IMG/VR virus record: IMGVR_UViG_3300033148_007408
Span: 38,656-102,655 of that record
Length of the DNA stretch: 64,000 nt
From: a virus
Direction: 5' to 3' (one strand)
Both the position numbers and the translations under genes were made by a program. This document shows, in pieces, positions 20,208 through 54,847 of this stretch. The notes beneath the pieces are model-generated. The model did no database searches. It saw nothing but the letters and a program-made list of their open reading frames with translations, and was not told the DNA's origin. Position 1 is the first letter of the stretch; each line of letters opens with the position of its first letter.

Positions 20208-20262
20208 AATAAATGCTCAATGAAATCAGTTGAGTCCAAAAAAGTTTCAGATATTTTCCACA

Positions 20263-29060: not shown

Positions 29061-29727
29061 AAAATGTTTAAAATGCAACGAGAACAAACATTTAGAAGAA
29101 TTTTGCAAAGATAGGCTTTGCAAGGATGGGTATAGAAATGTTTGTAAGGAATGTTATAACGCTCGCAAAAAAGAGTTGGTCAACCCGAAAAAAAGAGCTA
29201 AGAAATATCAGGAAAACAAAGAAAAAAATAAGAAGAGGGCAAGGGAGTATTACTATAAAAACAGAGAAGACATTTTGAAGTATAAGAAGCAACATTATGA
29301 GCAAAATAAAGAAGATATTATAGAATATCACAGAGAATATAACGAAAAAAATAGAGAAGTTATAAATCAAAAAGCAAGGGTTTATAAAGATAAAAATCGT
29401 GAAAAAGTTAAAAGGTCAAATAGGCAGTACGACAGGAAGAGGAGAGATTTGCGAAAATCCATAGGAGAAAAATATACCAGTTTTGATGAAAAAGTTACTA
29501 GGATGGTGTTTGACAATGTATGTGCCAATTGTGGCTCTAAAGAGAATCTTCAAATAGACCATCACTATCCATTATCAAAAGGTTTTGCTCTTTCCATAAC
29601 AAATGCCGTGCTATTATGTAAAGATTGTAATTGGGCGAAATTTACTAAACTGCCAGAAGAATTTTACTCCAAGAGAAAGTTGACAAAAATAAATTTGTTG
29701 CTTAAAAAAGCAAAGGATTACAAATGA
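29050..29727 (+). CDS. HNH homing endonuclease with N-terminal zinc motifs
   Basis: The first conventional start in frame is ATG 29176, but the frame upstream clearly encodes the usual N-terminal zinc module (KCLKCNENKHLEEFC ... CKECYN, 29062-29160). The only codon preceded by a good ribosome site (GGAGG at 29036-29040) is ATA at 29050, so the start is non-standard or mutated. A long Lys/Glu/Asn-rich coiled region (around 29176-29460) follows, then the HNH core VCANCGSKENLQIDHHYPL ... NAVLLCKDCNWAK with paired CxxC. It is a free-standing homing nuclease inserted after thymidine kinase and overlapping it slightly. Confidence 0.75.
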   Translation: MTHKKCLKCNENKHLEEFCKDRLCKDGYRNVCKECYNARKKELVNPKKRAKKYQENKEKNKKRAREYYYKNREDILKYKKQHYEQNKEDIIEYHREYNEKNREVINQKARVYKDKNREKVKRSNRQYDRKRRDLRKSIGEKYTSFDEKVTRMVFDNVCANCGSKENLQIDHHYPLSKGFALSITNAVLLCKDCNWAKFTKLPEEFYSKRKLTKINLLLKKAKDYK

Positions 29728-30797
29728 CTGAAAAAATTGCGTTAGTGGTAAGAGAACTTACCTATCTTAAGGCGCTTCATCCGATAATGGTGGAATTGAA
29801 AAAAGCAGGCCAACAATATATCATTTATCATTATGATATGTTTAGAGGCGCGAAGGAATATAATCGTGCGACCAGAAAGAAAATGGTACAATCGTCCAGA
29901 GAAGTGATGGCCGGCGCTAAGAAAATTAAGGCATTTGCGGACGAAAAAGAGTTACAAAAGGGTTTGTTACACGATAGAATAACTAAAATGGTGAGTTTGG
30001 AGATATGGCTGTGGGCTCGTAAGTATATGGATTTTTTTAAGAAACATAATATAAAAACATATTCTATTATGTATTTAACCGATAGTTTGTGGCAACCAGA
30101 TCCAAGATGTGCGACTTCGGTTTATAGAGTTTATTATTCCTCTCGGCATATTATGGAAAAACATCATAAATTTGCTGGAATTAAATATAATGAGGTTCGA
30201 GATAAATGCATAGGCTCTCCGATATTCGACTCGTTGGCGGAAGAAACAGAGGGGGAAGATATTTTAGTGTTGCTACCCAATATGCTGGCAGAGCATGTTA
30301 GAGCGACATTCGGCACCAAGGCAAACTTTAATAAAATCATCGAAAAAGTGTGCGAATATAAAAAGCCCATATTCAAAGCACGAAAGAAACAATGGATTCC
30401 CAAAATAGTTAAAAACGGGAAACATGAGATAATATTCGATGGGGCTCAAATGTATCCGCCTAAGATTTCGGAATTATTGCAGAGGTCGTTTGCTGTTGTA
30501 ATGTTTCTCTCTAGCGGTGTTTATGAGTGTGTATATAGTGGAAATTACGTAATAAACATAACTATTCCGGTTAAAAGATGGTCTTGGAGTAAAGATAAAA
30601 TGCAAGAGTATTTTTCAACCAAACCCCAAAGTTTATACAATTTCGAGGGGGTGATTGAAAGCCACTCACAAGAAGGCTTTTTATCTGGCGATTTTAACCC
30701 TCGGCGAATTGATAAAGATAAACAAAAAGATTGGGTTAAGTCGTTCGGTGTTGCCAGTGGGGCGTCAAATATTGCACAAGATATAATTAACAGTTAG
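29724..30797 (+). CDS. GT-B transferase-like protein, paralogue set A
   Basis: The 357 residues start in an ATGA overlap. It is clearly paralogous to the products at 46595 and 51596. Shared features are an N-terminal L-x-x-L-x-P-I-M segment, a Y-S-I-x-Y-x-x-D-S stretch, G-S-P-x-F-D, a P-N-x-x-x-x-x-x-A-T-F-G segment, and a late S-x-x-x-Y-E-x-x-x-x-G-x-Y-V-I-N motif like the donor site of CDP-glycerol or capsule-type GT-B transferases. The exact sugar is unknown. It is the last gene before the long intergenic region. Confidence 0.6.
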   Translation: MTEKIALVVRELTYLKALHPIMVELKKAGQQYIIYHYDMFRGAKEYNRATRKKMVQSSREVMAGAKKIKAFADEKELQKGLLHDRITKMVSLEIWLWARKYMDFFKKHNIKTYSIMYLTDSLWQPDPRCATSVYRVYYSSRHIMEKHHKFAGIKYNEVRDKCIGSPIFDSLAEETEGEDILVLLPNMLAEHVRATFGTKANFNKIIEKVCEYKKPIFKARKKQWIPKIVKNGKHEIIFDGAQMYPPKISELLQRSFAVVMFLSSGVYECVYSGNYVINITIPVKRWSWSKDKMQEYFSTKPQSLYNFEGVIESHSQEGFLSGDFNPRRIDKDKQKDWVKSFGVASGASNIAQDIINS

Positions 30798-30825
30798 TTT
30801 TTTTCGGTCAGACCTTCCAAAAAAA

Positions 30826-30969
30826 TCGCGTTCTTAAAAAATATCCTCCAAGTCGCGTTTTCTTAAAAATACTTTCCTAATAATTTCAACCACTTAAAAA
30901 AAATAATTCTGAAAATCTATCAATATTCTAAAAATCTATCCATAGTTGGGTATAAGGTGTGGGTATAAG
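30826..30969. promoter_or_regulatory. Repeat-rich regulatory region before the pseB-like operon
   Basis: The 236-base space 30798-31033 is the longest without a gene. It holds a direct repeat TCGCGTT..CTTAAAAA (30826 and 30853, 27-base spacing), two copies of the AATCTATC core (30914 and 30933) with variants of the conserved element, and a doubled GGGTATAAG (30948 and 30961). No clear terminator hairpin is seen. It is a good candidate for an operator cluster controlling the operon that begins at 31034. Confidence 0.55.
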
Positions 30970-31033
30970 TTTTCTTAAATGGGCTTAAATAATGACATTG
31001 CTGGAAAGTAATTAAATCTGGGGTTTGAAACGC

Positions 31034-32215
31034 ATGGAACAATATTCAATAGGCGAAATGGCTAAAAAATTGGGAAAAAGCGTGAAAACCTTGCAGCGGT
31101 GGGATAAAAATGGGACACTATCGGCTTTTAGACATGCTTCCAATAGGCGTTATTATACCCAAAAACAATTTCTAGAAGCCTCCAACAGAGTCAATTATAT
31201 TAAAGATGGTACGGACTTGGATGCTGTTAGAAATAAAACGGTATTAATAACCGGGGCAACAGGGAGTCTCGGAACTAAACTCACGGCACGCATTTGTACT
31301 GTGGCCAAAAAAATTATTGTTTTTAGTCGGTGCGAATTAAAGCAAGCAAATATGCAGGCTCAGTTTTCCGATAAAGACAATATAAGGTATATGCTGGGAG
31401 ATATTAAAGACAAGGAAAGGTTAGATTCTGCCTTGGATGGTGTAGATGTTTGTGTCCACGCTGCTTGTTTTAAGAGAATAGACAGTTGTTCTTATAATCC
31501 CTTTGAGGCAATTAAAACCAACATTAATGGCTCCGTAAATGTTGCGGAGGCGTGTATTAAGCGACAGGTTAAAAAAGTAATTTTTGTTTCAACAGATAAG
31601 GCAACTGAGTCCGGTACGTTATATGGCGGAACAAAGTTTGTCGCAGAACAGATGTTTATCAATGCAAATAACTATTCTAGTCGTAACTCTACAATTTTTT
31701 CGATAGTCAGGTATGGGAATGTTTATGGCAGTAATGGGAGCGTTAGGCATATTTTTGAGAAACAGGCGGAAGAAAATGGTGTTATTGGCATAACACACCC
31801 GGAAATGACTAGGTTTTTTATGTCTCTTGATGATGCGTGTGATCTTGTTTTATTTTGTGCAAATGGTATGATTGGTGGAGAAATATACGTTCCGAAAATG
31901 AAATCCATAGAGATAGTAAAATATGCAGAAATCTTTGCACCAAATACTCCCATAAAAATTATAGGACTTCGTGGCCATGAGAAAATACATGAAAAGTTAA
32001 TCTCCGAAACGGAAATGCTATATGTGGTTAAATGTAATGAAAAGTATTACAAAATAATCCCGCCCCATGTTAATATTCCGGGATTGGGTTGGGACGTTAA
32101 TTATCCAGAAGAAAAAAAGACACATAAAGTTACCTTATCATCGAATACTGCAGAAAGATTTACCAACCAAGAAATTATGAAGTTTGAATGCGACTTAAGT
32201 AATAAGGATGCGTGA
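31034..32215 (+). CDS. pseB: MerR-type HTH fused to PseB-like UDP-GlcNAc 4,6-dehydratase (SDR)
   Basis: Residues 1-50 are a MerR/IS607-type winged helix (YSIGEMAKKLGKSVKTLQRW ... SNRRYYT). From about residue 70 there is a full extended SDR: the Rossmann loop GATGSLG, STDKA near 186 (Asp-Lys of PseB/FlaA1-type dehydratases), the Y-x-x-x-K pair YGGTK near 196, and the late GHEKIHEKLISE. PseB enzymes (about 330 residues) make UDP-4-keto-6-deoxy-L-AltNAc, the first step to pseudaminic acid. I choose ATG 31034 over TTG 31025. The DNA-binding head and the repeat-rich upstream region suggest autoregulation, which is inference. Both parts lie in one uninterrupted frame. Confidence 0.85.
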   Translation: MEQYSIGEMAKKLGKSVKTLQRWDKNGTLSAFRHASNRRYYTQKQFLEASNRVNYIKDGTDLDAVRNKTVLITGATGSLGTKLTARICTVAKKIIVFSRCELKQANMQAQFSDKDNIRYMLGDIKDKERLDSALDGVDVCVHAACFKRIDSCSYNPFEAIKTNINGSVNVAEACIKRQVKKVIFVSTDKATESGTLYGGTKFVAEQMFINANNYSSRNSTIFSIVRYGNVYGSNGSVRHIFEKQAEENGVIGITHPEMTRFFMSLDDACDLVLFCANGMIGGEIYVPKMKSIEIVKYAEIFAPNTPIKIIGLRGHEKIHEKLISETEMLYVVKCNEKYYKIIPPHVNIPGLGWDVNYPEEKKTHKVTLSSNTAERFTNQEIMKFECDLSNKDA

Positions 32216-33433
32216 ATGAGCAAACCAGCGATAGAAGGCGGAAATCCTATACGAGAGAATTTTCTAGTTTTTGGCCAGCCTCAGGTTACAAAAGAAGATA
32301 TTTCCGCAGTTACAGAAACAATGCAGTCTTGTTGGCTAGGCACTGGAAAGAAAACAACTGAGTTTGAACATAAGTTTGCTGAATATCAAGGGGTTAAACA
32401 CGCTATAGGCCTAAACTCGTGCACTTCTAGTCTCCTTTTAGGCCTATTGTCGCTGGGATTGAATTTTCGCGACGAAGTCATATGCCCTATTTTCACCTTT
32501 ACAGCCACTGCTAGCCAAATAATCCACAGCCGACTCAAACCCGTGTTCATAGACGCCCAAATGAAAACGCAAAATATCGAGGTGGCAAACATAGAGCAAG
32601 CAATAACCGCAAAAACTCGTGCAATAATTATAGTGCATTTTGCTGGATTGTCGTGCGAGATGGATGAAATAATTGACATATGTAAGCGATACAATTTATA
32701 TTTATTATGTGATTCCGCACATTGTATAGAAGGGACTTACAAAGGAAAACACTGTGGGACGTTTGGTGACATAGGATGTTTTTCATTCTACAGCACCAAA
32801 AATATGACGACAGCAACCGGCGAGGGCGGAATGCTTGTGTGCGAAGATGATAGAATAGCAGAGTTTGTGCGTAAAGCTTCTCTTCACGGTATGTCTAAAG
32901 GAGCACATAACAGATTCAATACAGGCGGTTTTAATCATTACAGCGTCGATATGTGTGGCTTCAAGAGTAACCTAACAGATGTACAATCATCAATGGCGAT
33001 GACTCAATTATCTCGAATCGAATTGAATTGGGAGAAACGTAGTAAGGTATGGGATAAATACATGAAAGCATTTGGGGCATTAGACAACTTATTATTTACC
33101 CCGCCGCCTGTACCAAAACATATCAAGCACGGGTATCATCTTTTCACTCTACACCTGAAAATAGAAAAGCTTAAGGTGGGACGAGATTTTGTTCTTAATG
33201 CGTTGGCCAAAGAGGGTATAGGGACCGGAGTGCATTATCTGTCTTTACATATGCACCCATATTATATGAACACTTTTAATTTATCCGCTGTAGATTTTCC
33301 ATGTGCGCAATGGGTTTCAGAGAGGACTATTTCATTACCGCTGTCACCAAAACTTACGGAAAAAGACACAGATGATGTGATAAAGGCGGTTTATAAAATA
33401 CTCAATTATTATAAGAAAGTTGGCTCGGTATGA
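32216..33433 (+). CDS. pseC: PLP aminotransferase, DegT/DnrJ family (PseC-like)
   Basis: The 405 residues have the family layout: EDISAVTETM...CWLGTG near the N-terminus, NSCTSSLLLGL, the PLP-ring contact region CDSAHC near residue 163, and the Schiff-base lysine in FYSTKNMT near 195. It should aminate the 4-keto sugar made by the upstream dehydratase. It follows pseB directly (ATG after the stop) and is four-base coupled to the next gene. Part of the first third is C-rich against its surroundings. The assignment as PseC rather than another sugar aminotransferase rests on context. Confidence 0.85.
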   Translation: MSKPAIEGGNPIRENFLVFGQPQVTKEDISAVTETMQSCWLGTGKKTTEFEHKFAEYQGVKHAIGLNSCTSSLLLGLLSLGLNFRDEVICPIFTFTATASQIIHSRLKPVFIDAQMKTQNIEVANIEQAITAKTRAIIIVHFAGLSCEMDEIIDICKRYNLYLLCDSAHCIEGTYKGKHCGTFGDIGCFSFYSTKNMTTATGEGGMLVCEDDRIAEFVRKASLHGMSKGAHNRFNTGGFNHYSVDMCGFKSNLTDVQSSMAMTQLSRIELNWEKRSKVWDKYMKAFGALDNLLFTPPPVPKHIKHGYHLFTLHLKIEKLKVGRDFVLNALAKEGIGTGVHYLSLHMHPYYMNTFNLSAVDFPCAQWVSERTISLPLSPKLTEKDTDDVIKAVYKILNYYKKVGSV

Positions 33434-34113
33434 TTGATTTAGATGGAAAAAATATATTACTGACGGGCGATAAGGGTTTTTTGGGGAACAACCTTAAAAA
33501 CAAACTGCTCCAAGAGTTTGGTTGTAATGTCGTTGGTGTTGATTTGAATGTTTTTGATATAACGGATCCAAATGCCACCGAACAGTATTTTAACTCGATT
33601 GACCTTGAGTTTGATGGAGTGATTAATAATGCGGCAGTCAGTTTTAAGGGAAAGAATATTTCGAATAAAAAGTTTTTAGAAACGCTAAATGTTAATATTT
33701 TTGGCACATATAATGTAATGAAACATGTCCTCCCGAAAATAAAAAAAGGCGGAAGTGTGGTTAATATATCTAGCGTTTATAGTTTTGCAATTCCCAAATA
33801 TTCTATGTATGATGGGAACGAAGAACAATATAACAATATTTCATACGGTGCCAGTAAAGCAGCCGTAAACCAAATGACCAAAATAATGGCAGTGCAAATG
33901 GCACCGGACATAAGAGTAAATGCCGTTAGTCCGGGGGGAATAAGAGGGGATCAAAATATAGAGTTTGTTAAAAAATATTCCCAAAATGTTCCGCTCCAAA
34001 GAATGGTAGAGGTCGATGAGGTTATTGGCTGTATTGTATTTTTGCTGTCAGATATGTCTAGCGGTATAACGGGACAAAATATTTATGTTGATGGTGGTTT
34101 GGGGATTGTATAA
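33430..34113 (+). CDS. Classical short-chain dehydrogenase/reductase
   Basis: The 227 residues carry the NAD(P) loop TGDKGFLG (13-20), NNAAV, Ser in NISSVYS and the catalytic Y-x-x-x-K as YGASK near residue 139, then PGGIRG and a C-terminal G-Q-N-I-Y-V-D-G-G. It should oxidise or reduce a sugar hydroxyl or keto group. Similar SDRs accompany nonulosonic-acid loci. Its exact step (for example epimer or side-chain adjustment) is not decided by sequence. Overlaps link it to pseC and the synthase. Confidence 0.82.
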   Translation: MIDLDGKNILLTGDKGFLGNNLKNKLLQEFGCNVVGVDLNVFDITDPNATEQYFNSIDLEFDGVINNAAVSFKGKNISNKKFLETLNVNIFGTYNVMKHVLPKIKKGGSVVNISSVYSFAIPKYSMYDGNEEQYNNISYGASKAAVNQMTKIMAVQMAPDIRVNAVSPGGIRGDQNIEFVKKYSQNVPLQRMVEVDEVIGCIVFLLSDMSSGITGQNIYVDGGLGIV

Positions 34114-34937
34114 TGCAGAAGGTTTTTATAATAGCGGAAGCAGGCATAAATCATAATGGCGACGTAGAAGAGGCCAAGAGACTAATAGATGTTGCTCAAA
34201 AATCAGGGGCAAATGCTGTTAAGTTTCAGTCTTATCATACAGACTCGCGTGTTAAAAAAGATAATCCTGCCTATGAAATATTAAAAAAGTGCGAATTGTC
34301 CAAAGAAGAACAGATGTCTCTAATATCTCACGGAAAAGATATGGGAACAGAGGTATTTTTTACTGTTTTTGATTCCGACCATCTTTCATTTTTATTGAAT
34401 GATTGCGGAGCCCAAAGGATAAAATTGGCGTCTTTTGATATAGTTAATATGTCGTTTCTCCGAGAAATAAATCAGTATGCTAGAAGTGATTATAATTTGA
34501 ATGTATTACTATCTACCGGTATGTCTGACCTCCATGAAATAAATAATGCAAGAAACTGCTTAAGTAATGTATCTAATTTGACATTAATGTATTGTGTTTC
34601 TGCGTATCCTATAAAAGATGAAAGCCAAATAAATCTATCATCCATACAAACATTAAAATCGTTTGCATATGGTCCAATTAAAGTGGGGTATAGCAACCAT
34701 CATAAGTCATCCGATATTCCGTTATGGGCCGTTTTAATGGGCGCAAAAACAATAGAATGTCATTTTATGGAAAACGAAAATGACAAATGTGTTGATGCAC
34801 CAGTATCATTAGACAAAAAGATGTTTTCCGATATGGTAAATAAAATACGACGAGCTGAAACCATAATGGGCGATGGAGTGTTGGGGCTAAAGCAAATAGA
34901 AAAAGATGCTTTGGGTTTTAGGAGGGTTTCTGGGTGA
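34113..34937 (+). CDS. pseI: NeuB/PseI-family nonulosonate synthase, no SAF domain
   Basis: The 274 residues form the TIM-barrel part of sialic/pseudaminic acid synthases. Visible motifs are IAEAGINHNGD, VKFQSYH, LSTGMSDLHEI, MYCVSAYP and VGYSNHH. Enzymes of this family condense phosphoenolpyruvate with a 2,4-diacetamido- or N-acetyl hexose to a nine-carbon acid. The usual C-terminal SAF (antifreeze-like) domain of about 60 residues is missing, as in the copies at 56634 and 58072. It shares one base with the SDR stop and is GTGA-coupled to the PseG-like gene. Assigned as PseI from position. Confidence 0.82.
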   Translation: MQKVFIIAEAGINHNGDVEEAKRLIDVAQKSGANAVKFQSYHTDSRVKKDNPAYEILKKCELSKEEQMSLISHGKDMGTEVFFTVFDSDHLSFLLNDCGAQRIKLASFDIVNMSFLREINQYARSDYNLNVLLSTGMSDLHEINNARNCLSNVSNLTLMYCVSAYPIKDESQINLSSIQTLKSFAYGPIKVGYSNHHKSSDIPLWAVLMGAKTIECHFMENENDKCVDAPVSLDKKMFSDMVNKIRRAETIMGDGVLGLKQIEKDALGFRRVSG

Positions 34938-35779
34938 AAATTTCTTTTTACAGGGATCACGGTGCTATTCGTGAGATAGGCAAAGGGCATTTATATCGAA
35001 CCAAAGCAATTTCCCGCGAGTTAGCAAAGAGAGGTCACTCAGTAGCAAATATTGAAGATGATGTACTTTACTCCGATCTTGATGCATTAGTGATAGATCA
35101 TATACACAGCCAAAAAGAAATTATTATGAGAGCGAAACAAGCAAAAATAAAGGTAATTTTGATCGATGGGGCGGTAGAAGATGTTGCATTAGTTGATGTT
35201 AGTATTAGTGCAATGTATAATCCTATTGCTCAATTTTCAGGACTTAAATATGTATGTATTCCGACAGAGGGTCGTACTAATTACTATTCCGTCGGCAGAA
35301 AGAGTAAAAATGTATTCGTTGCGATGGGAGGATTTGACGCCAACAATATAGCAGAAATGATTGTCGATGCACTCGGGGGTATTGGATTATATGCGATAGT
35401 GGCTAAAAGTATAAATCATGACTTTGCGCCATATAGCAATATGGAGTTTTTCGAGGAAGAAAATTATTACGATGCTATGAACGAATGCACAATAGCAGTA
35501 ACAAACGGCGGACTTAGTCTTTTTCAACTTTTATATTATGGAATGCCCTGTGTAGCAATTCCGCAGTATAAACATCAATCTAAAAACATTTCTTTTGTGA
35601 GTGGTTGTTGTGTTAAGTGTATGCCGGAAAAAGATGAGATAAAAGAAAAAGTGAAATTTCTTATGGATGATGAGTATGCCAAAATCGATTTCAGTATATT
35701 TGGCTCTAACGTAATTGATGGTAAGGGGTGCGAAAGGGTTTGCGATATAATAGAAGGTGTTCATGATTCCGCTAATTGA
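34934..35779 (+). CDS. pseG: PseG-like UDP-sugar hydrolase
   Basis: The 281 residues start at GTG (GTGA overlap). N-terminal features match PseG: an R-D segment then GKGHLYRTKAISREL (16-30), whose His is catalytic in the family, and a C-terminal GT-B donor site (TNGGLSLFQLLYYGMPCVAIP, around 192). PseG removes UDP from UDP-2,4-diacetamido-trideoxy-L-altrose to feed PseI. Length matches (about 275). Position beside the synthase supports the call. Confidence 0.8.
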   Translation: MKISFYRDHGAIREIGKGHLYRTKAISRELAKRGHSVANIEDDVLYSDLDALVIDHIHSQKEIIMRAKQAKIKVILIDGAVEDVALVDVSISAMYNPIAQFSGLKYVCIPTEGRTNYYSVGRKSKNVFVAMGGFDANNIAEMIVDALGGIGLYAIVAKSINHDFAPYSNMEFFEEENYYDAMNECTIAVTNGGLSLFQLLYYGMPCVAIPQYKHQSKNISFVSGCCVKCMPEKDEIKEKVKFLMDDEYAKIDFSIFGSNVIDGKGCERVCDIIEGVHDSAN

Positions 35780-36689
35780 TCGTAGGATTTTGCTTTTTGG
35801 TTCGCAGAAAATAGCCATAGATATTATAAATCTAATAAAAAAGCGGAAGTTTTGCGGAATGGACATGGAGACATATGTTTATCCCGAGTTAGTTGGTGTA
35901 ATAACTTCTGATGAGGAAAGAGACAGGCAGGGCGACAATCAATTAGTGTCAGAGTATTGTTTTCAGCAGGGCATTCCATCTTTTTGTTTTGAGGGAAAAA
36001 TAAACACCGAAATAATTAAGAAAATGAAACCCGATATAATATTCAGCGTGTATTATAGAAAAATGATTCCAAAAGATGTGTTAAGCATTCCGCATATGGG
36101 TTGTGTAAATCTTCACCCATCTTTACTTCCCAAAGATCGTGGTCCAAATCCAGTATATTGGTGCATTAGGCGGGGAGATAAGATAACGGGAACCACATTG
36201 CATTATATGGATGAAGGAATGGATACGGGAGATATTATAGACCAGAGGCAAGTACGAATTAATAACATGGCGGGCTTTAGGTTGGGCGAACAGTTAATGA
36301 AGTCGGGAGTTGATTTGTTTAGGTCCAATTACGCAGATATAATGTGCGGAAAGAATGATAGGATGGAACAGGACAGTACGTATATTGCCCCGACATGTAA
36401 TATTTTGTTTAATGATTTAATGCGTAAAATAAATTGGACCGAAAGTGCGGAAAGTATAATCAACCACATCAGGGCACACACTCGGCCTTATTCTGGTTCG
36501 ATTGCGGAAAATAAAAATGGCGGTCAGACTTTTTTGTGGAAGGCCGAGATATTACACGAGTTAAGGGGCAATAAAGGCCCGGGCAGTTATGAAATACGCA
36601 ATGGAGATTTAATTGTGCAGACTTATAATTCCCCCATTAGGGTTAAAGATTATACGGGCGAAATAAAACCAAAAGGAAGGTTTGTATGA
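35763..36689 (+). CDS. Formyltransferase (Fmt/ArnA-N-terminal-like), probably sugar N-formyltransferase
   Basis: I use ATG 35763 (ribosome site GAAGG) instead of GTG 35757. The 308 residues contain the formyl-THF enzyme motif NLHPSLLPKDRGPNPVYW near residue 118 (catalytic Asn-His-Asp triad type, with the later D-T-G-D at about 155). In a pseudaminic pathway it could put a formyl group on a sugar amine in place of acetyl. Length is near 310 as in Fmt. Genuine methionyl-tRNA formyltransferase is less likely because it sits mid-pathway. Confidence 0.82.
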   Translation: MIPLIDRRILLFGSQKIAIDIINLIKKRKFCGMDMETYVYPELVGVITSDEERDRQGDNQLVSEYCFQQGIPSFCFEGKINTEIIKKMKPDIIFSVYYRKMIPKDVLSIPHMGCVNLHPSLLPKDRGPNPVYWCIRRGDKITGTTLHYMDEGMDTGDIIDQRQVRINNMAGFRLGEQLMKSGVDLFRSNYADIMCGKNDRMEQDSTYIAPTCNILFNDLMRKINWTESAESIINHIRAHTRPYSGSIAENKNGGQTFLWKAEILHELRGNKGPGSYEIRNGDLIVQTYNSPIRVKDYTGEIKPKGRFV

Positions 36690-37459
36690 GTGTTGGAATT
36701 ATTATACAGGCTAGATCTGGGAGCAGTAGATTTCCACGTAAAATCTATGCCCCTTTTAATAATGGCAAAAATAGCATTCAGTGTATTTTAGAGGGAACAA
36801 AGAAAACCATTGTTCCGCATAAGATTGTGTTGGCTATGCCCAAAGATGACCAAAAAGAAATAGAAAAAAGATTGGCAGAAGGAGAATTTAACGAATATAT
36901 CGATAATAGGTTTGAGTTATTTATTGGGCTAGGTGAAGAAGACGACTTGGTGGATAGGTATTATGGGGCGATGAGGAAGTTCGATATAGATGTTTGTATG
37001 AGGATAACGGGAGACTGCCCTATGCACTGTGCCACTTCCGGTATGATGGATGATATGCTGCTGAAATATTTGGGCGAGAGAAAAAGCGTTTTTATGGGAA
37101 ATGATCTGTTAGTGTCACGAGTTCCTTATCCATGCGGAATTGACATGGAGGTATTCAATTACGAGATGATGTGCTGGGTTAAAATGCATGCGAAAACTGA
37201 TGCTGAATTAGAACATTGTGTAACTACCTTGTATGGAACTTTTTCACCCTTCGATTTATACGGTTACGAAAACATTAGGCCACAAATTCAAATATCAACA
37301 CGTATTTCTGATTTTTCCCTAGATACGCGTGAAGATTATGAATTGTTGAAAAAATTGATGAATGAATATGATAAATATCAAGACATAAACAAGGCGATAG
37401 AGAGTGTAAGCCTATCCAATATTAAAAAAACCAATATGAGCAAGAATTTTAGGCAATAG
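36686..37459 (+). CDS. pseF: CMP-nonulosonate cytidylyltransferase, SpsF/PseF-like
   Basis: The 257 residues show the SpsF/NeuA-type start (IIIQARSGSSRFPRK), then a G-E-E-D-D-L-V-D-R-Y segment, RITGDCP near residue 112 and a late LDTREDYELL. It should activate the nonulosonate as its CMP sugar. It is ATGA-coupled to the formyltransferase and is followed by an inserted zinc-ribbon endonuclease. Together with pseB, C, I, G and H it completes the pathway in this operon. Confidence 0.82.
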   Translation: MSVGIIIQARSGSSRFPRKIYAPFNNGKNSIQCILEGTKKTIVPHKIVLAMPKDDQKEIEKRLAEGEFNEYIDNRFELFIGLGEEDDLVDRYYGAMRKFDIDVCMRITGDCPMHCATSGMMDDMLLKYLGERKSVFMGNDLLVSRVPYPCGIDMEVFNYEMMCWVKMHAKTDAELEHCVTTLYGTFSPFDLYGYENIRPQIQISTRISDFSLDTREDYELLKKLMNEYDKYQDINKAIESVSLSNIKKTNMSKNFRQ

Positions 37460-38592: not shown

Positions 38593-39035
38593 GAAAAAAT
38601 GAGAAATACATATGTCTTTCTGGTATGGCGGATCCTTTACGACTTGGGCATATTAAAATGTTGCAGGAGGCGAGCTTTTATGGTAAGGTTATTTGGATAT
38701 TAAACTCGAATGAGTGGATCGAGAGACGGCGAGGCTATTATTTGATGGATTGGAGTGAACGAGCCGAAATACTACGAGCCTATAAAGAAATTCATGATGT
38801 TGTGCCTGTTGACGATCTTGAGGGCGGAACAGTTGAAGAGGCCTTGATACGAATCAAACCACATTTTTTTGGTAATGGCGGCGACTCAAACCCAGACAAT
38901 ACACCGGAAATTAATATCTGTAATCAACTAGGCATAGAGGTGGTGTTCGGATTGGGTGGAGACAAAATGCACAACTCAGGAGAACTCATAGATGTGGTTG
39001 TCGCATCGATTATTAAAAAATTGGAAAAGTGGTAA
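38589..39035 (+). CDS. Cytidylyltransferase-fold nucleotidyltransferase (TagD/RfaE2-like)
   Basis: The 148 residues have the nucleotidyltransferase core: LSGMADPLRLGHIKML, a G-x-x-D-x-x-x-x-G-H variant in which the first His of the usual H-x-G-H is replaced (LRLGH). It is followed by W-S-E-R-A-E-I-L and FFGNGGD. Such enzymes join CTP or ATP to a sugar or polyol phosphate. The altered first His may lower or change activity. It is ATGA-coupled to the endonuclease and shares one base with the acetyltransferase. Confidence 0.7.
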   Translation: MRKNEKYICLSGMADPLRLGHIKMLQEASFYGKVIWILNSNEWIERRRGYYLMDWSERAEILRAYKEIHDVVPVDDLEGGTVEEALIRIKPHFFGNGGDSNPDNTPEINICNQLGIEVVFGLGGDKMHNSGELIDVVVASIIKKLEKW

Positions 39036-39571
39036 TGAAATATTTGGTTGGGCAGAAGATTAAACTCGAAAAGTTCTGCGATAAGCACATAACAGACGAA
39101 TATATTTCATGGTTAAATGATTCCGAAGTTAATAGATACTTGTGCGTAGGAAGGATTCCAGTGTCGAAATCTGATGTTTCTGTTCCGTCGGGAGATAAAG
39201 ATATTCGATTTGCTATAATTGCGAAACGGAAAAAGTATATCGGAACAATATCTTTACATAAAATTGATTGGATTGATCGACGTGGAGAGATAGGTTATAT
39301 AATAGGCGATAAGAGTTTTTGGGGAAAGGGTGTAGCAAGTGAAGCAATATCTTTGGTGACGGCCTATGGTATTAATAGACTTGGACTTAATAAAATAGTG
39401 GCCGGAGTAATCGAAGGAAATACTGGGTCAATGAAGGTGCTGGAAAAGAATGGGTACAAAGAACATGCCATAGAGTATCAGGAATATTGGTTAGAGGGGA
39501 AGTTTTTAGATTTACACAAGTTTTACATTTTGGCGGAATGGAGGCAACATGACAAGAAAACGAACCATTAA
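39035..39571 (+). CDS. pseH: GNAT acetyltransferase (PseH-like)
   Basis: I use ATG 39035 in the TAATG overlap. The 178 residues belong to the RimJ/RimL-PseH type: R-G-E-I-G-Y-I-I-G, W-G-K-G-V-A-S-E-A (acetyl-CoA loop), L-N-K-I-V-A-G-V-I-E-G-N, and S-M-K-V-L-E-K-N-G-Y-K-E. It likely acetylates the 4-amino group of the UDP-sugar between PseC and PseG. The paralogue at 57485 may serve another nonulosonate. It overlaps the next endonuclease gene by 23 bases. Confidence 0.8.
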   Translation: MKYLVGQKIKLEKFCDKHITDEYISWLNDSEVNRYLCVGRIPVSKSDVSVPSGDKDIRFAIIAKRKKYIGTISLHKIDWIDRRGEIGYIIGDKSFWGKGVASEAISLVTAYGINRLGLNKIVAGVIEGNTGSMKVLEKNGYKEHAIEYQEYWLEGKFLDLHKFYILAEWRQHDKKTNH

Positions 39572-43053: not shown

Positions 43054-44416
43054 ATGAACATTTTGGTAATAAATATTTCTATGCGTCCGCAGTTGGAGGC
43101 AAAATTATTTCCAGTTGGCCTCGGATATATATGTACGGCTATGAAAAACGCTGGGTTGAAATTTGATCTCGTTGATATAGATGCCCATAGATATTCTTAC
43201 GAAAAAGTTGCCCGGATTATATCAGAAAAAAAATATGACGTAGTGTGTATGGGTTGTATAGTCACTGGGTATTCAAAAGTCAAAAGTTTATGTTCGGTTG
43301 TTAGGGGGATTCACCCTGACTCGAAAATTATAGTGGGAAATTCGGTGGCAACATCTATACCAAATATATTATTGAACAATACGGAAGCCGATATAGCAGT
43401 AATGTCCGAGGGTGATGAAACTATAATAGACTTATTGCAATGTATTGACACTGGCGATGATTTAAGCAAAGTGAACGGTATAGCATTTAAAACTGCGAGT
43501 GAAATTATTCGCACGCAGACAAGAAAACCAATATCTGATATATCATCATTGCCGTTTATAGATTTTGATATATTTGATGTTGAGACATATATAACGAACG
43601 CAAATATACACGAGTCGAAGGTTTCTACAGTAAATAGGCCAAGAGCATTGCCAGTCAATACAGCCAGAGGGTGTATTGCAAACTGTACATTTTGTTACCA
43701 TGTGTTTAAAGGGGTTAAATATAGATATAGAACCTCCAAATCTATTGTTAATGAAATTAAAAACTTAGTCGACAAATATAATATAAATTATGTCCAAATG
43801 TGGGACGAGTTGACTCTTTTTTCCAAGACTCGGGCGGAATCTTTGGCTCAGGAAATTATTGACGCCGGCCTTAAAATTAATTGGACGGCACAATGTAGGG
43901 CTAATTTATTTACAGAAGACGGAGACCTGAGGATAATAGAAAAGTTAAAAAACGGAGTCGTCGGATGCGGAAATACTGAATGATATGAATAAAAAAATCT
44001 CTGTCAAACAATTTTCCAAGCAAACATCTTTGTTGCAAAAGGTCGATATGGCAACATGGACATCATTGGTATTTGGCTATCCGAGGGAGAGCACAAATAC
44101 AATACGCGCAACATTTGATTGCTGTATAGAGAATAATATTTATCCGTCAGTCGGATATCTTTTACCACAACCGGGATCCATAATGTACAAATATGCCTTG
44201 GATAATGGGTTTATAGATAATGAGGAAGAATATCTGTTAAAAATAGGAGATAGGCAGGATTTAACCATTAATCTAACCACAATGAACAATAGAGAGTTTG
44301 AGAATGCCGTCTCGCTAGGTATTCGCAGATGTAATAAAGAAATGAAAATGGGATTGGGCGAAAATCTGATAAAAACGAAATCCTTTAGGGGATCGAAGGT
44401 ATCAAGAAAGCAATAA
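43054..44416 (+). pseudogene. Cobalamin-type radical SAM protein, broken by internal deletion
   Basis: Two ORFs (43054-43983 and 43985-44416) together match the intact paralogue at 48471. The first has the B12-binding-like N-domain and the [4Fe-4S] motif C-I-A-N-C-T-F-C near residue 210. At about 43954 the frame moves to -1: GAG TCG TCG GAT GCG encodes the E-S-S-D-A of the paralogue. About 29 bases are missing relative to the paralogue, removing A-G-C-C-G-M-G-Y-S-L, which holds a conserved Gly/Ser part of the radical SAM core. The product is presumably inactive unless this is an assembly fault. Confidence 0.75.
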
Positions 44417-47688: not shown

Positions 47689-48474
47689 GTGGCGATACTA
47701 AAAGAATACTTGAATAAAAAATATGATACTCCGCAGAATCTTAAAGACAAATACAATGGTTCTGAAATTCTAATAGTTGGCACGGGAAATTCTACTATTG
47801 ATCTGGTTAAATATAAAGATCGCCTAAAAGACAAGTTTGGTGTTGTGATAGGGTTAAATTATTCAACAAAAGATTTTGAGAGCGTGATGGATTTTAGATT
47901 GATAGTGGAGAAAAAGGCTGATGGGTTTTTGAAAGATTTAGATGGTCGGGAATATAGACGGGATTTGCCACATATTATAAATTGGAAGTCCATAGATAAA
48001 TACCCAAGAGATTTGCCATTATATAAAACTACGCGATCTAATTTCAACTTCAATCCGCGTATTAGAGAATATGGATATAATGGCAGTGAGGGGCTTTTGA
48101 TAGGCCCACCAGATACTACCGGACTTTCTGCTGGTACTGCTGCATGTCAAGCATTGCATTTGGCTTGCATTATGGGTGCCAAAAGCGTATATTTGATTGG
48201 TTGTGATTTAATGTTCAAAGCGGGTGGTGATCATTATTATGGCGGAGATTATTATGCCAAATCAGTGACTAAACCGGCAAACAGATCTCCTATCGTAAAT
48301 ATAATAAAGGACGGAAAAGAACATAGAACGACTGAATTCTTTCTAAACAGCGCTCGGTTTATTGATTTTATTGTTGAAAAATATTGTAGGCGGGCGGGCG
48401 TAAATGTATATGATTTTTCGAGCGGACTAATAGTTAAAGCGAAAAAACAAAACTTGGGTGAGTTTTTTAAATGA
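47689..48474 (+). CDS. Maf/DUF115-like or GT42-like putative nonulosonate transferase
   Basis: Starts at GTG 47689 (AGAGG upstream). The 261 residues have EILIVGTGNSTIDL near 25, VIGLNYSTKDFESVMDF, and GTAACQALHLACIMGAKSVYLIGCDL with a following G-G-D-H-Y-Y. This two-part pattern (G-x-G-x-S near the N-terminus, A-L-x-L-A...Y-L-I-G-x-D later) is shared by motility accessory factors (MAF_flag10), which put pseudaminic/legionaminic acid on flagellin, and by GT42 sialyltransferases. Which family applies cannot be settled by eye. Three copies occur in this window. Confidence 0.68.
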   Translation: MAILKEYLNKKYDTPQNLKDKYNGSEILIVGTGNSTIDLVKYKDRLKDKFGVVIGLNYSTKDFESVMDFRLIVEKKADGFLKDLDGREYRRDLPHIINWKSIDKYPRDLPLYKTTRSNFNFNPRIREYGYNGSEGLLIGPPDTTGLSAGTAACQALHLACIMGAKSVYLIGCDLMFKAGGDHYYGGDYYAKSVTKPANRSPIVNIIKDGKEHRTTEFFLNSARFIDFIVEKYCRRAGVNVYDFSSGLIVKAKKQNLGEFFK

Positions 48475-49832
48475 ATATTTTGATAATAAACTTCCCACTT
48501 CGTTCGGGTATGTCTCAACGGTTTTTTTCGCTTGGTTTGGGCTATATAGCAACAGCAATAAAAAACGCCGGATTTGCGTTTGACCTAATAGATTTAGATG
48601 TGAATAGAAACCAAGGGTTAAAGTTTGCAAAATCCTATGACGTGGTATGCATGGGGTCATTAATCTCGGGGTATAAGAAAATTAAACACATTTTACTTGA
48701 GGTGAGAAAGTTTAATCCGCATGCCAAGATTATAGTGGGAAATTCAGTGGCAACTTCAATTCCGAATCTTTTATTAAACAACACAGAGGCCGACATAGTA
48801 GTAATGTCCGAGGGTGATGAGACTATCGTAGATTTGTTAAACACGATTAAACATGAAAAAAGTATAGACGATGTTCGCGGCATTTGTTATAAACACAATG
48901 GTCGAATAGTATATACTGAGCAACGAAAGGCAATTAAAAATATTTCACTTATTCCAAATGTAGATTTTGACATTTTTGACATAGAGGGGTATATTAAAAA
49001 TAGTGACGTAGATGAGTCCGATGAATTAATTGGAAAAGATATAAGACCGCTGGCAATTAATACTGCTCGTGGTTGTCCCTTTAATTGTACCTTCTGCTAT
49101 CACACTTTCAAGTCCATTAAATATCGTCGTCGAAGTCCGCAGTCAATAGTGTCAGAGATTAAAAATCTCATTAAAAAATACGGTATAAATTATGTTAAGT
49201 TTTATGACGAACTAACCTTTTTTACTAAAAAACAGGCAAATGATTTTGCCGAAGAAGTATTATCTTCTGGTCTTAATATATACTGGGTGGCACAATGTAG
49301 GGCTAATCTATTTAACGCACAAGACATAGATATAGTTAAAAAAATGAAAGATGCTGGTTGCTGTGGAATGGGTTATTCTCTTGAGTCTTCCGATGCGTCT
49401 ATATTATGTGCTATGAATAAAAAAATATCGGTTAAACATTTTTCTGAACAAAGCAAACTTCTTCAAGACGCTGGTATTTCAACTTGGACATCTTTGGTGT
49501 TAGGCTATCCGCAAGAGACACCGGAAACCATTAGGAAGACATTTGAGTGTTGTACCAGAAGTAATATTTATCCGTCAATTGGGTTTTTATTACCACAGCC
49601 GGCGTCGGTTATGTATGAATATGCCATTGAGCATGGTTTTATCCAAAATGAAGAAGAGTATATTCTAAAAATGGGCGACAGACAAGATTTGACAGTTAAT
49701 ATGACTCAAATGTCCAATGATGAGTTTGAATCTATTATTGCCGAGGAAGCACAAAAATGTAATGAAGCGTTACGAATGGGGCTTGAAAAGGATAAGTTGA
49801 TTAAAACTTCATTTTATAGAATTACCAAATAA
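48471..49832 (+). CDS. Cobalamin-type radical SAM protein, intact copy
   Basis: The 453 residues include a B12-binding-like N-terminal domain, the radical SAM motif C-P-F-N-C-T-F-C (202-209), the G-M-G-Y-S-L-E-S-S-D core and a helical C-terminus. Such enzymes often methylate carbon or phosphorus centres. It is a clear paralogue of the broken 43054 gene. ATGA coupling to the DUF115-like gene and the following synthase makes a sugar substrate likely, but unproven. Confidence 0.82.
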   Translation: MNILIINFPLRSGMSQRFFSLGLGYIATAIKNAGFAFDLIDLDVNRNQGLKFAKSYDVVCMGSLISGYKKIKHILLEVRKFNPHAKIIVGNSVATSIPNLLLNNTEADIVVMSEGDETIVDLLNTIKHEKSIDDVRGICYKHNGRIVYTEQRKAIKNISLIPNVDFDIFDIEGYIKNSDVDESDELIGKDIRPLAINTARGCPFNCTFCYHTFKSIKYRRRSPQSIVSEIKNLIKKYGINYVKFYDELTFFTKKQANDFAEEVLSSGLNIYWVAQCRANLFNAQDIDIVKKMKDAGCCGMGYSLESSDASILCAMNKKISVKHFSEQSKLLQDAGISTWTSLVLGYPQETPETIRKTFECCTRSNIYPSIGFLLPQPASVMYEYAIEHGFIQNEEEYILKMGDRQDLTVNMTQMSNDEFESIIAEEAQKCNEALRMGLEKDKLIKTSFYRITK

Positions 49833-54495: not shown

Positions 54496-54847
54496 TATAG
54501 ATGGGGTAATTTGCACTAATACATGGGGAAATTATGCAAAGGCGAAACCTCATTTAGAAATGATTGCTTTTATTAACAAATTACACGACGATGGAAATGA
54601 GATAATTTTTCATTCTGCTCGTGGGTTTGGAACATGCGGTGGTGTAATAAAAGATATAAACGCAAAATGGTATGATTTTACCGTGAAACAATTGTACGAT
54701 TGGGGTGTAAAATATAACTTTTTAACATTAGGAAAGCCAGACGGGCAAATATATGTAGATGACAAAGCATTTAGGGCGAATGGAAATACATGTGGCGATA
54801 TTAGTCGGCTTGAACTTTACATTGAAGGGTTGGATGCCAATGGTTAA
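54479..54847 (+). CDS. HAD-type phosphatase, small (capsule type)
   Basis: The 122 residues carry all HAD motifs: FDIDGV (first Asp nucleophile), HSARGFG (motif II Ser), a Lys in GKPDGQ (motif III) and YVDDKA (motif IV). Small HAD enzymes of this kind occur in capsule and phage clusters and may remove phosphate from a 9-phosphate sugar, as NeuB partners sometimes need. That role is inferred from its position next to NeuA. Confidence 0.8.
   Translation: MKVVFDIDGVICTNTWGNYAKAKPHLEMIAFINKLHDDGNEIIFHSARGFGTCGGVIKDINAKWYDFTVKQLYDWGVKYNFLTLGKPDGQIYVDDKAFRANGNTCGDISRLELYIEGLDANG

Follow-up and report, generated by a model that had tools for sequence, protein, structure and literature searches.

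Does a phage enzyme of sugar-nucleotide metabolism carry its own DNA-binding domain and, if so, does it act on the promoter of its own gene? This question is raised by the gene at positions 31034 to 32215 (+ strand) of a 64,000-nucleotide stretch of viral DNA (the window), which represents bases 38656–102655 of a virus record of 102,655 bases. A preliminary description of the DNA had read the gene as an HTH fused to a sugar-nucleotide dehydratase, and had proposed a pathway enzyme that binds its own promoter, perhaps sensing UDP-sugar or NADP. The left part encodes large tail-type proteins, one of which is about 30% identical to the Bacillus phage G baseplate wedge over a quarter of its length, and we read the source as a large contractile-tail phage, a point missed in the preliminary description. 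The segments of the fusion protein, its neighbouring pathway genes, the gene before it and the repeats between them are all given for the + strand.

Domain composition of the fusion protein

The gene is a single stop-free frame encoding 393 amino acids. Pfam profiles match residues 4–49 as MerR_1 (32.9 bits; cut-off, 21.6) and MerR (31.2 bits; cut-off, 28.2), and residues 70–336 as Polysacc_synt_2 (277.5 bits). Three parts can be delimited: an IS607/MerR-type winged HTH (residues 1–50; 31034–31183), assigned by these profiles, an AlphaFold model and codon comparison; a linker (residues 51–64; 31184–31225), assigned by pLDDT and closed by the sequence DG-DLDAVR that is conserved in the alignment of two phages; and a PseB-like UDP-GlcNAc 4,6-dehydratase (residues 65–393 plus the stop; 31226–32215), assigned by profiles, fold match and catalytic residues. 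In the AlphaFold model, the HTH has MerR topology (pLDDT 92–96), the dehydratase part is mostly above 90, and confidence falls to about 50 in the linker (residues ~50–62). The winged HTH stands separate on this flexible linker and does not pack onto the enzyme. The reading of an HTH (residues 1–50) in one frame with a PseB-like SDR is thus borne out by Pfam, NCBIfam and AlphaFold, and the structural model that had been proposed as a check indeed yields an ordered winged HTH, a low-confidence linker and an ordered dehydratase. The pairing of the two domains is genuine and goes far beyond what chance would produce.

The same pair had been suggested as something to look for in other genomes, and a pattern scan (HTH tryptophan motif followed by a Rossmann motif) recovered it from a second phage contig of 206,495 bases (phage 2). 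The two fused proteins align end to end with 61% identity, the join included, and in each of them the head scores above the cut-off for MerR_1.

The best NCBIfam model for the fusion is PseB (TIGR03589), which scores 330.6 bits over residues 66–378, and the phage 2 protein scores 337.8 bits. Because both scores are under the equivalog cut-off of 407.75, the enzyme part is to be classified from its profile scores as PseB-like and not as a PseB equivalog. Among solved structures, Helicobacter pylori FlaA1 (PDB 2gn4) comes nearest in both sequence and fold, with 40% identity, a TM-score of 0.90 (normalised by target) and an rmsd of 1.9. The motif TGATGSLG (residues 73–80), T187-D188-K189, Y197 and K201 align with FlaA1, whose named catalytic residues D132, K133 and Y141 (PMC5774825) correspond to D188, K189 and Y197. 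The claim that the SDR active-site motifs are kept therefore agrees with the alignment, and D188, K189, Y197, K201 and the nucleotide motif are present in both phages. From UDP-GlcNAc, the C-terminal part is predicted to make the first intermediate of the pathway.

Three residues common to both fused proteins set them apart from 47 unfused relatives: C100 (31331–31333) replaces an Asp found in 44 of the 47, C145 (31466–31468) an Ala found in all 47, and N234 (31733–31735) an Arg found in 44. Judged by its place in the SRDExK motif, the Asp replaced by C100 matches D38 of WbjB, which forms a salt bridge in the hexamer interface (PMC5774825). A changed hexamer interface or a redox pair is a possible consequence of these substitutions.

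By sequence, the closest kin of the head are IS607 transposases. Residues 8–48 are 63% identical to Staphylococcus phage transposases in the phage and plasmid collections, and residues 8–57 are 56% identical to an IS607 transposase of Ligilactobacillus. RacA is among the proteins with the closest solved heads. In each phage record, no MerR_1 match other than the head exceeds the cut-off; neither record holds a clear match to resolvase or serine-recombinase remnants, and TnpB is absent from the record of the window and represented in phage 2 by one sub-threshold match (12.4 bits). The tnpB gene is an optional feature that is missing from many IS607 elements.

The classical MerR dimerisation coiled coil is absent after the HTH in the AlphaFold model, where the low-confidence linker leads into the dehydratase. 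The coiled coil is also missing from the MerR-like protein BldC, which binds in head-to-tail fashion to direct repeats of 9 bp and contacts DNA through K26, T27, R30, W31 and K33 (PMC5859096). In a span match to the BldC chains, these residues correspond to K18, T19, R22, W23 and K25 of the head. The IS1535 TnpA protein binds four 9-bp direct repeats (PMC6188088). As a separate observation, several bacteria have C5-cytosine DNA methyltransferases fused to MerR-type HTHs that are related to this head (loci L074, L064, L078, L091 and similar).

Occurrence, selection and translation start

The two phages share synteny over 50 kb around the fusion, mostly at 40–60% protein identity, and are distantly related. 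The gene immediately upstream (29724–30797), which has no Pfam match, is 49% identical to the upstream neighbour in phage 2. In a phylogenetic tree, the two fused proteins group together (support 100/100) on a long branch apart from the 47 unfused proteins.

Comparison of the HTH codons between the window and phage 2 gave 60% amino acid identity, with pN of 0.34 and pS of 0.835, values that indicate purifying selection on the head as a protein with silent sites saturated. In phage 2, K18 is replaced by Q and R22 by N, changing two base-contact positions, and T19, W23, K25, R33 and R38 are the same in both phages. Because the resulting variant QTLRNW is seen in many IS607 transposases, the two changes suggest an altered recognition sequence rather than a dead domain.

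Phage 2 also bears on where translation starts. Its HTH is immediately preceded by a GTG start with a GGAGG six bases upstream, and codons 48 to 67 of its gene offer no alternative ATG, GTG or TTG. Note that a TTG at codon 62 of the window gene could in principle start the enzyme. Given that the HTH is under selection and that the GGAGG site precedes it in phage 2, translation evidently begins before the HTH; translation and selection of the head are both well supported by the comparison. The preliminary description had allowed that no other genome might carry the fusion and that translation might start after the HTH. What was found is a fused gene in phage 2 and a selected HTH.

The fusion is rare. 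Among 2.9 million viral contigs, scanned eight times, only these two phages were found to have it, the other viral PseB genes met in those scans all being unfused, and the phage and plasmid collections hold no fused relative. About 320 strong PseB-like matches in 1,481 bacterial genomes from four phyla are likewise unfused: nearly all of their alignments begin near residue 50–65 of the fusion, and their upstream extensions hold stops. One bacterial match (G1046) is stop-free to residue 19, but proved to be GC-rich read-through with no HTH, and two more candidates were plain PseB-type genes when read. An HTH-pattern scan of genome contigs, which is blind to fusions with a different HTH, returned 109 relatives, and none of the best 80 of these 109 is fused to a dehydratase. 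The bacterial sample is broad, and rare bacterial fusions remain compatible with it.

The gene neighbourhood and the upstream gap

Directly after the stop of the fusion lies a PseC-like aminotransferase gene (32216–33433; DegT, 368 bits; TIGR03588, 293 bits). It is followed by genes for an SDR oxidoreductase (33430–34113; Pfam), a NeuB/PseI-type nonulosonate synthase (34113–34937; Pfam and NCBIfam), a PseG-like UDP-sugar hydrolase (34934–35779; TIGR03590, 41.6 bits, under its cut-off), a formyltransferase-like protein (35757–36689; Pfam) and a CMP-sugar synthetase-like cytidylyltransferase (36686–37459; Pfam). A GNAT acetyltransferase further downstream of this run (39029–39571) is a candidate for the PseH role. 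Together with the PseB-like enzyme, these proteins would make up a nearly complete pathway for a nonulosonic acid (pseudaminic-like, sialic-acid-like); several of them score under their equivalog cut-offs. The fusion heads the run of pathway genes in both phages, and the pathway genes are syntenic.

Across the window, four different NeuB-type nonulosonate synthases (at 34113, 49855, 56634 and 58018) and two cytidylyltransferases (at 36686 and, PseF-like, at 54759) are present, and much of this set is syntenic in phage 2. One phage with several nonulosonic-acid branches, if true, would be remarkable in itself. Proteins that by eye resemble homing or HNH-type endonucleases are scattered between the sugar genes (7433, 15182, 16752, 20449, 29176, 37474 and 39549). 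Two B12-binding, radical-SAM-like proteins are also encoded, the first (43054–44416) split into frames 43054–43983 and 43985–44416, and the second (48471–49832) in one frame of 453 amino acids.

The gene stands behind a 236-nt gap (30798–31033) that had been described as the longest, repeat-rich intergenic region. That it is rich in repeats holds: it contains 10 repeated 9-mers where 1.3 are expected, a number reached by none of 2,000 dinucleotide shuffles, and its repeat score is equalled by 18 of 1,707 windows along the contig. It is only among the longest, however, as called ORFs leave other gaps of 241, 238 and 241 nt at 20208, 26088 and 27671. Direct repeats, and not close inverted ones, dominate the gap. 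They comprise a 19-nt tandem repeat of ATTCTRAAAATCTATCMAT in two copies (30906–30943), two copies of TCGCGTT(TT)CTTAAAA (30823–30868) and two copies of TGGGTATAAG (30947–30969). A search of the gap for a sigma-70-like promoter found none. In phage 2, a 75% complementary palindrome overlaps the ribosome site. Because IS607-type and BldC-type heads bind direct repeats, the repeat region is plausible as an operator.

A motif for such heads was derived from the regions upstream of 27 genes with IS607-type heads, where enriched words include TATAAAAA, AATCTAT and TAACAGTT. The two best window hits of the refined matrix (consensus CAATCTATACA) are the two copies of the 19-nt tandem. Against shuffles, the best hit in the window has p = 0.04, a generous value given that several matrices were tried, and the summed score has p = 0.145; in phage 2 the matrix is not significant (p = 0.115 pooled; p = 0.062 with its own HTH class). 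Another word enriched upstream of IS607-type genes, TAACAGTTA, occurs once in the contig, at 30788–30796; it is weak evidence, as this copy runs into the 3' end of the preceding gene, covering its final codons. No significant motif is common to the window gap and the 86-nt gap of phage 2, the best match being reached by 20 of 200 shuffles. The direct repeats at 30906–30943 are thus a good candidate operator, with motif evidence that is weak and at most suggestive. Across the IS607-type genes (L048–L120), the enriched upstream words vary with the class of recognition helix (ATCTATAAAAA for RNW and AAACTATGCAA for RRW), suggesting a readable protein–DNA code for this HTH family.

Proposed function and comparison with known systems

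The most likely reading, to which we give about even chances, is that the protein has two functions, as an enzyme and as a repressor of its own nonulosonic-acid operon, acting through direct repeats upstream of the gene. The sequences support the fusion itself, the fact that it is conserved, selection on head and enzyme, the catalytic motifs and the position of the gene at the start of a pseB–pseC set. That the protein binds DNA, acts as a repressor at this operator and assembles into hexamers is inferred, as is any modulation by NADP or UDP-GlcNAc. In this mechanism, the C-terminal dehydratase would convert UDP-GlcNAc to the first intermediate of nonulosonic acid synthesis. Since FlaA1, CapE and WbjB are hexamers (PMC5774825, PMC3699295), the fusion is probably a hexamer too, and such an enzyme would present several heads on one particle, allowing strong repeat binding despite the missing MerR coiled coil. 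The heads would bind direct repeats in front of their own gene, for which 30906–30943 is the best candidate, and the operon would be repressed in proportion to the amount of fusion protein. Against autorepression stand the weak motif evidence for an operator, the absence of a significant motif common to the two upstream regions, the two changed base-contact positions in phage 2, the negative search for a sigma-70-like promoter and the limitation of the fusion to two genomes.

We favour simple amount-dependent self-repression above ligand sensing in view of the behaviour of Q1, a chimera of an HTH and active shikimate kinase that is catalyst and repressor at once, but whose turnover blocked effector-driven release in vivo (PMC3602430). 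By this analogy, ligand sensing by an active enzyme is doubtful. The authors of the WbjB study suggest that the coenzyme switches the enzyme into its hexameric form (PMC5774825), and modulation of the fusion by NADP is conceivable on the same pattern. A more elaborate history is a long shot: the left part of an IS607-like element (TAACAGTTA, the AATCTAT direct repeats and the OrfA head) may have been captured whole, with PseB replacing the recombinase and the transposon-end repeats becoming the operator of the operon, and hexamer assembly together with C100 and C145 may tune repression by coenzyme or redox state.

An artefact, whether from chimeric assembly, read-through or a start after the HTH, would be in keeping with the occurrence of the fusion in two genomes only and with the TTG at codon 62. 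It has to be set against an independent second contig that is similar across the join, purifying selection on the head, and, in phage 2, a strong ribosome site before the head and the lack of start codons around the linker, and it is refuted for practical purposes. If the head is real, it may still bind DNA away from its own promoter, on the phage genome or the host chromosome, and thereby control other genes or hold the enzyme close to phage DNA. This reading fits the conserved contact residues, the selection on the head, an own-promoter motif that is weak and not common to both phages, and the likeness to RacA, a chromosome-anchoring protein. Nevertheless, in both phages the gene stands ahead of the pathway genes, the repeats lie directly before it in the window, and we know of no benefit from tethering a soluble sugar enzyme to DNA. 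We consider binding elsewhere rather unlikely.

It is distinctly unlikely that the head has lost DNA binding and now has a role in structure or protein contacts, such as assembly or the recruitment of partner enzymes. The fusion-specific changes in the dehydratase, including C100 at the WbjB salt-bridge Asp (PMC5774825), suggest altered assembly, and R22, the equivalent of BldC Arg30, is N in phage 2. However, T19, W23, K25, R33 and R38 are retained in both phages, R-to-N and K-to-Q changes are normal in IS607 transposases of the QTLRNW class, which must bind DNA, and the modelled winged HTH is not packed into the enzyme. A pure transcription factor, whose dehydratase part binds a ligand without turnover, is improbable. 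BzdR evolved by this route (PMC3602430), and C100, C145 and N234 displace residues conserved in unfused enzymes, but the catalytic residues and the nucleotide motif are all present in both phages. Furthermore, when the fusion protein was used as the query, neither phage record yielded another strong match to PseB, such that the pathway would be without its first enzyme unless the host supplied it.

If self-repression is correct, the phage controls a long glycan pathway via its first enzyme, needing no repressor of its own for the task, and the head of a transposase has found a new use in regulation, in a compact single-protein system that is testable. Few enzymes have their own DNA-binding head. 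In the open-access literature, we found no description of a MerR–SDR or PseB fusion and no paper on a DNA-binding head on a nucleotide-sugar dehydratase or within a phage sugar pathway, and the pairing of an HTH with a nucleotide-sugar dehydratase appears undescribed there.

The protein belongs to a known category, that of enzymes bearing a DNA-binding head. With PseB/FlaA1 (TIGR03589, 2gn4) it has in common the fold, the catalytic residues and the pseB–pseC gene order, but it differs in its N-terminal HTH, its sub-cut-off score and the presence of C100, C145 and N234 in place of D, A and R. It resembles IS607 OrfA/TnpA in its related head, the N-terminal position of that head, the short linker and phased direct repeats as known or candidate sites, whereas it has no serine-recombinase domain and the phage records have no resolvase or clear TnpB. 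Like BldC-type regulators, it combines a winged HTH without a coiled coil, matching contact residues and direct repeats; unlike them, its head is attached to an enzyme and its DNA binding is only predicted. BzdR and Q1 also link an HTH to the fold of a small-molecule enzyme, but natural BzdR lost activity and the fusion retains its catalytic residues. The closest working precedent is a group of cytosine methylases in which an N-terminal HTH serves to repress the gene of the enzyme itself (PMC3874152). As in EcoRII, SsoII and Ecl18kI, an active-type enzyme with an N-terminal HTH heads its own operon, although here the substrate would be a nucleotide sugar instead of DNA and the HTH is of another kind.
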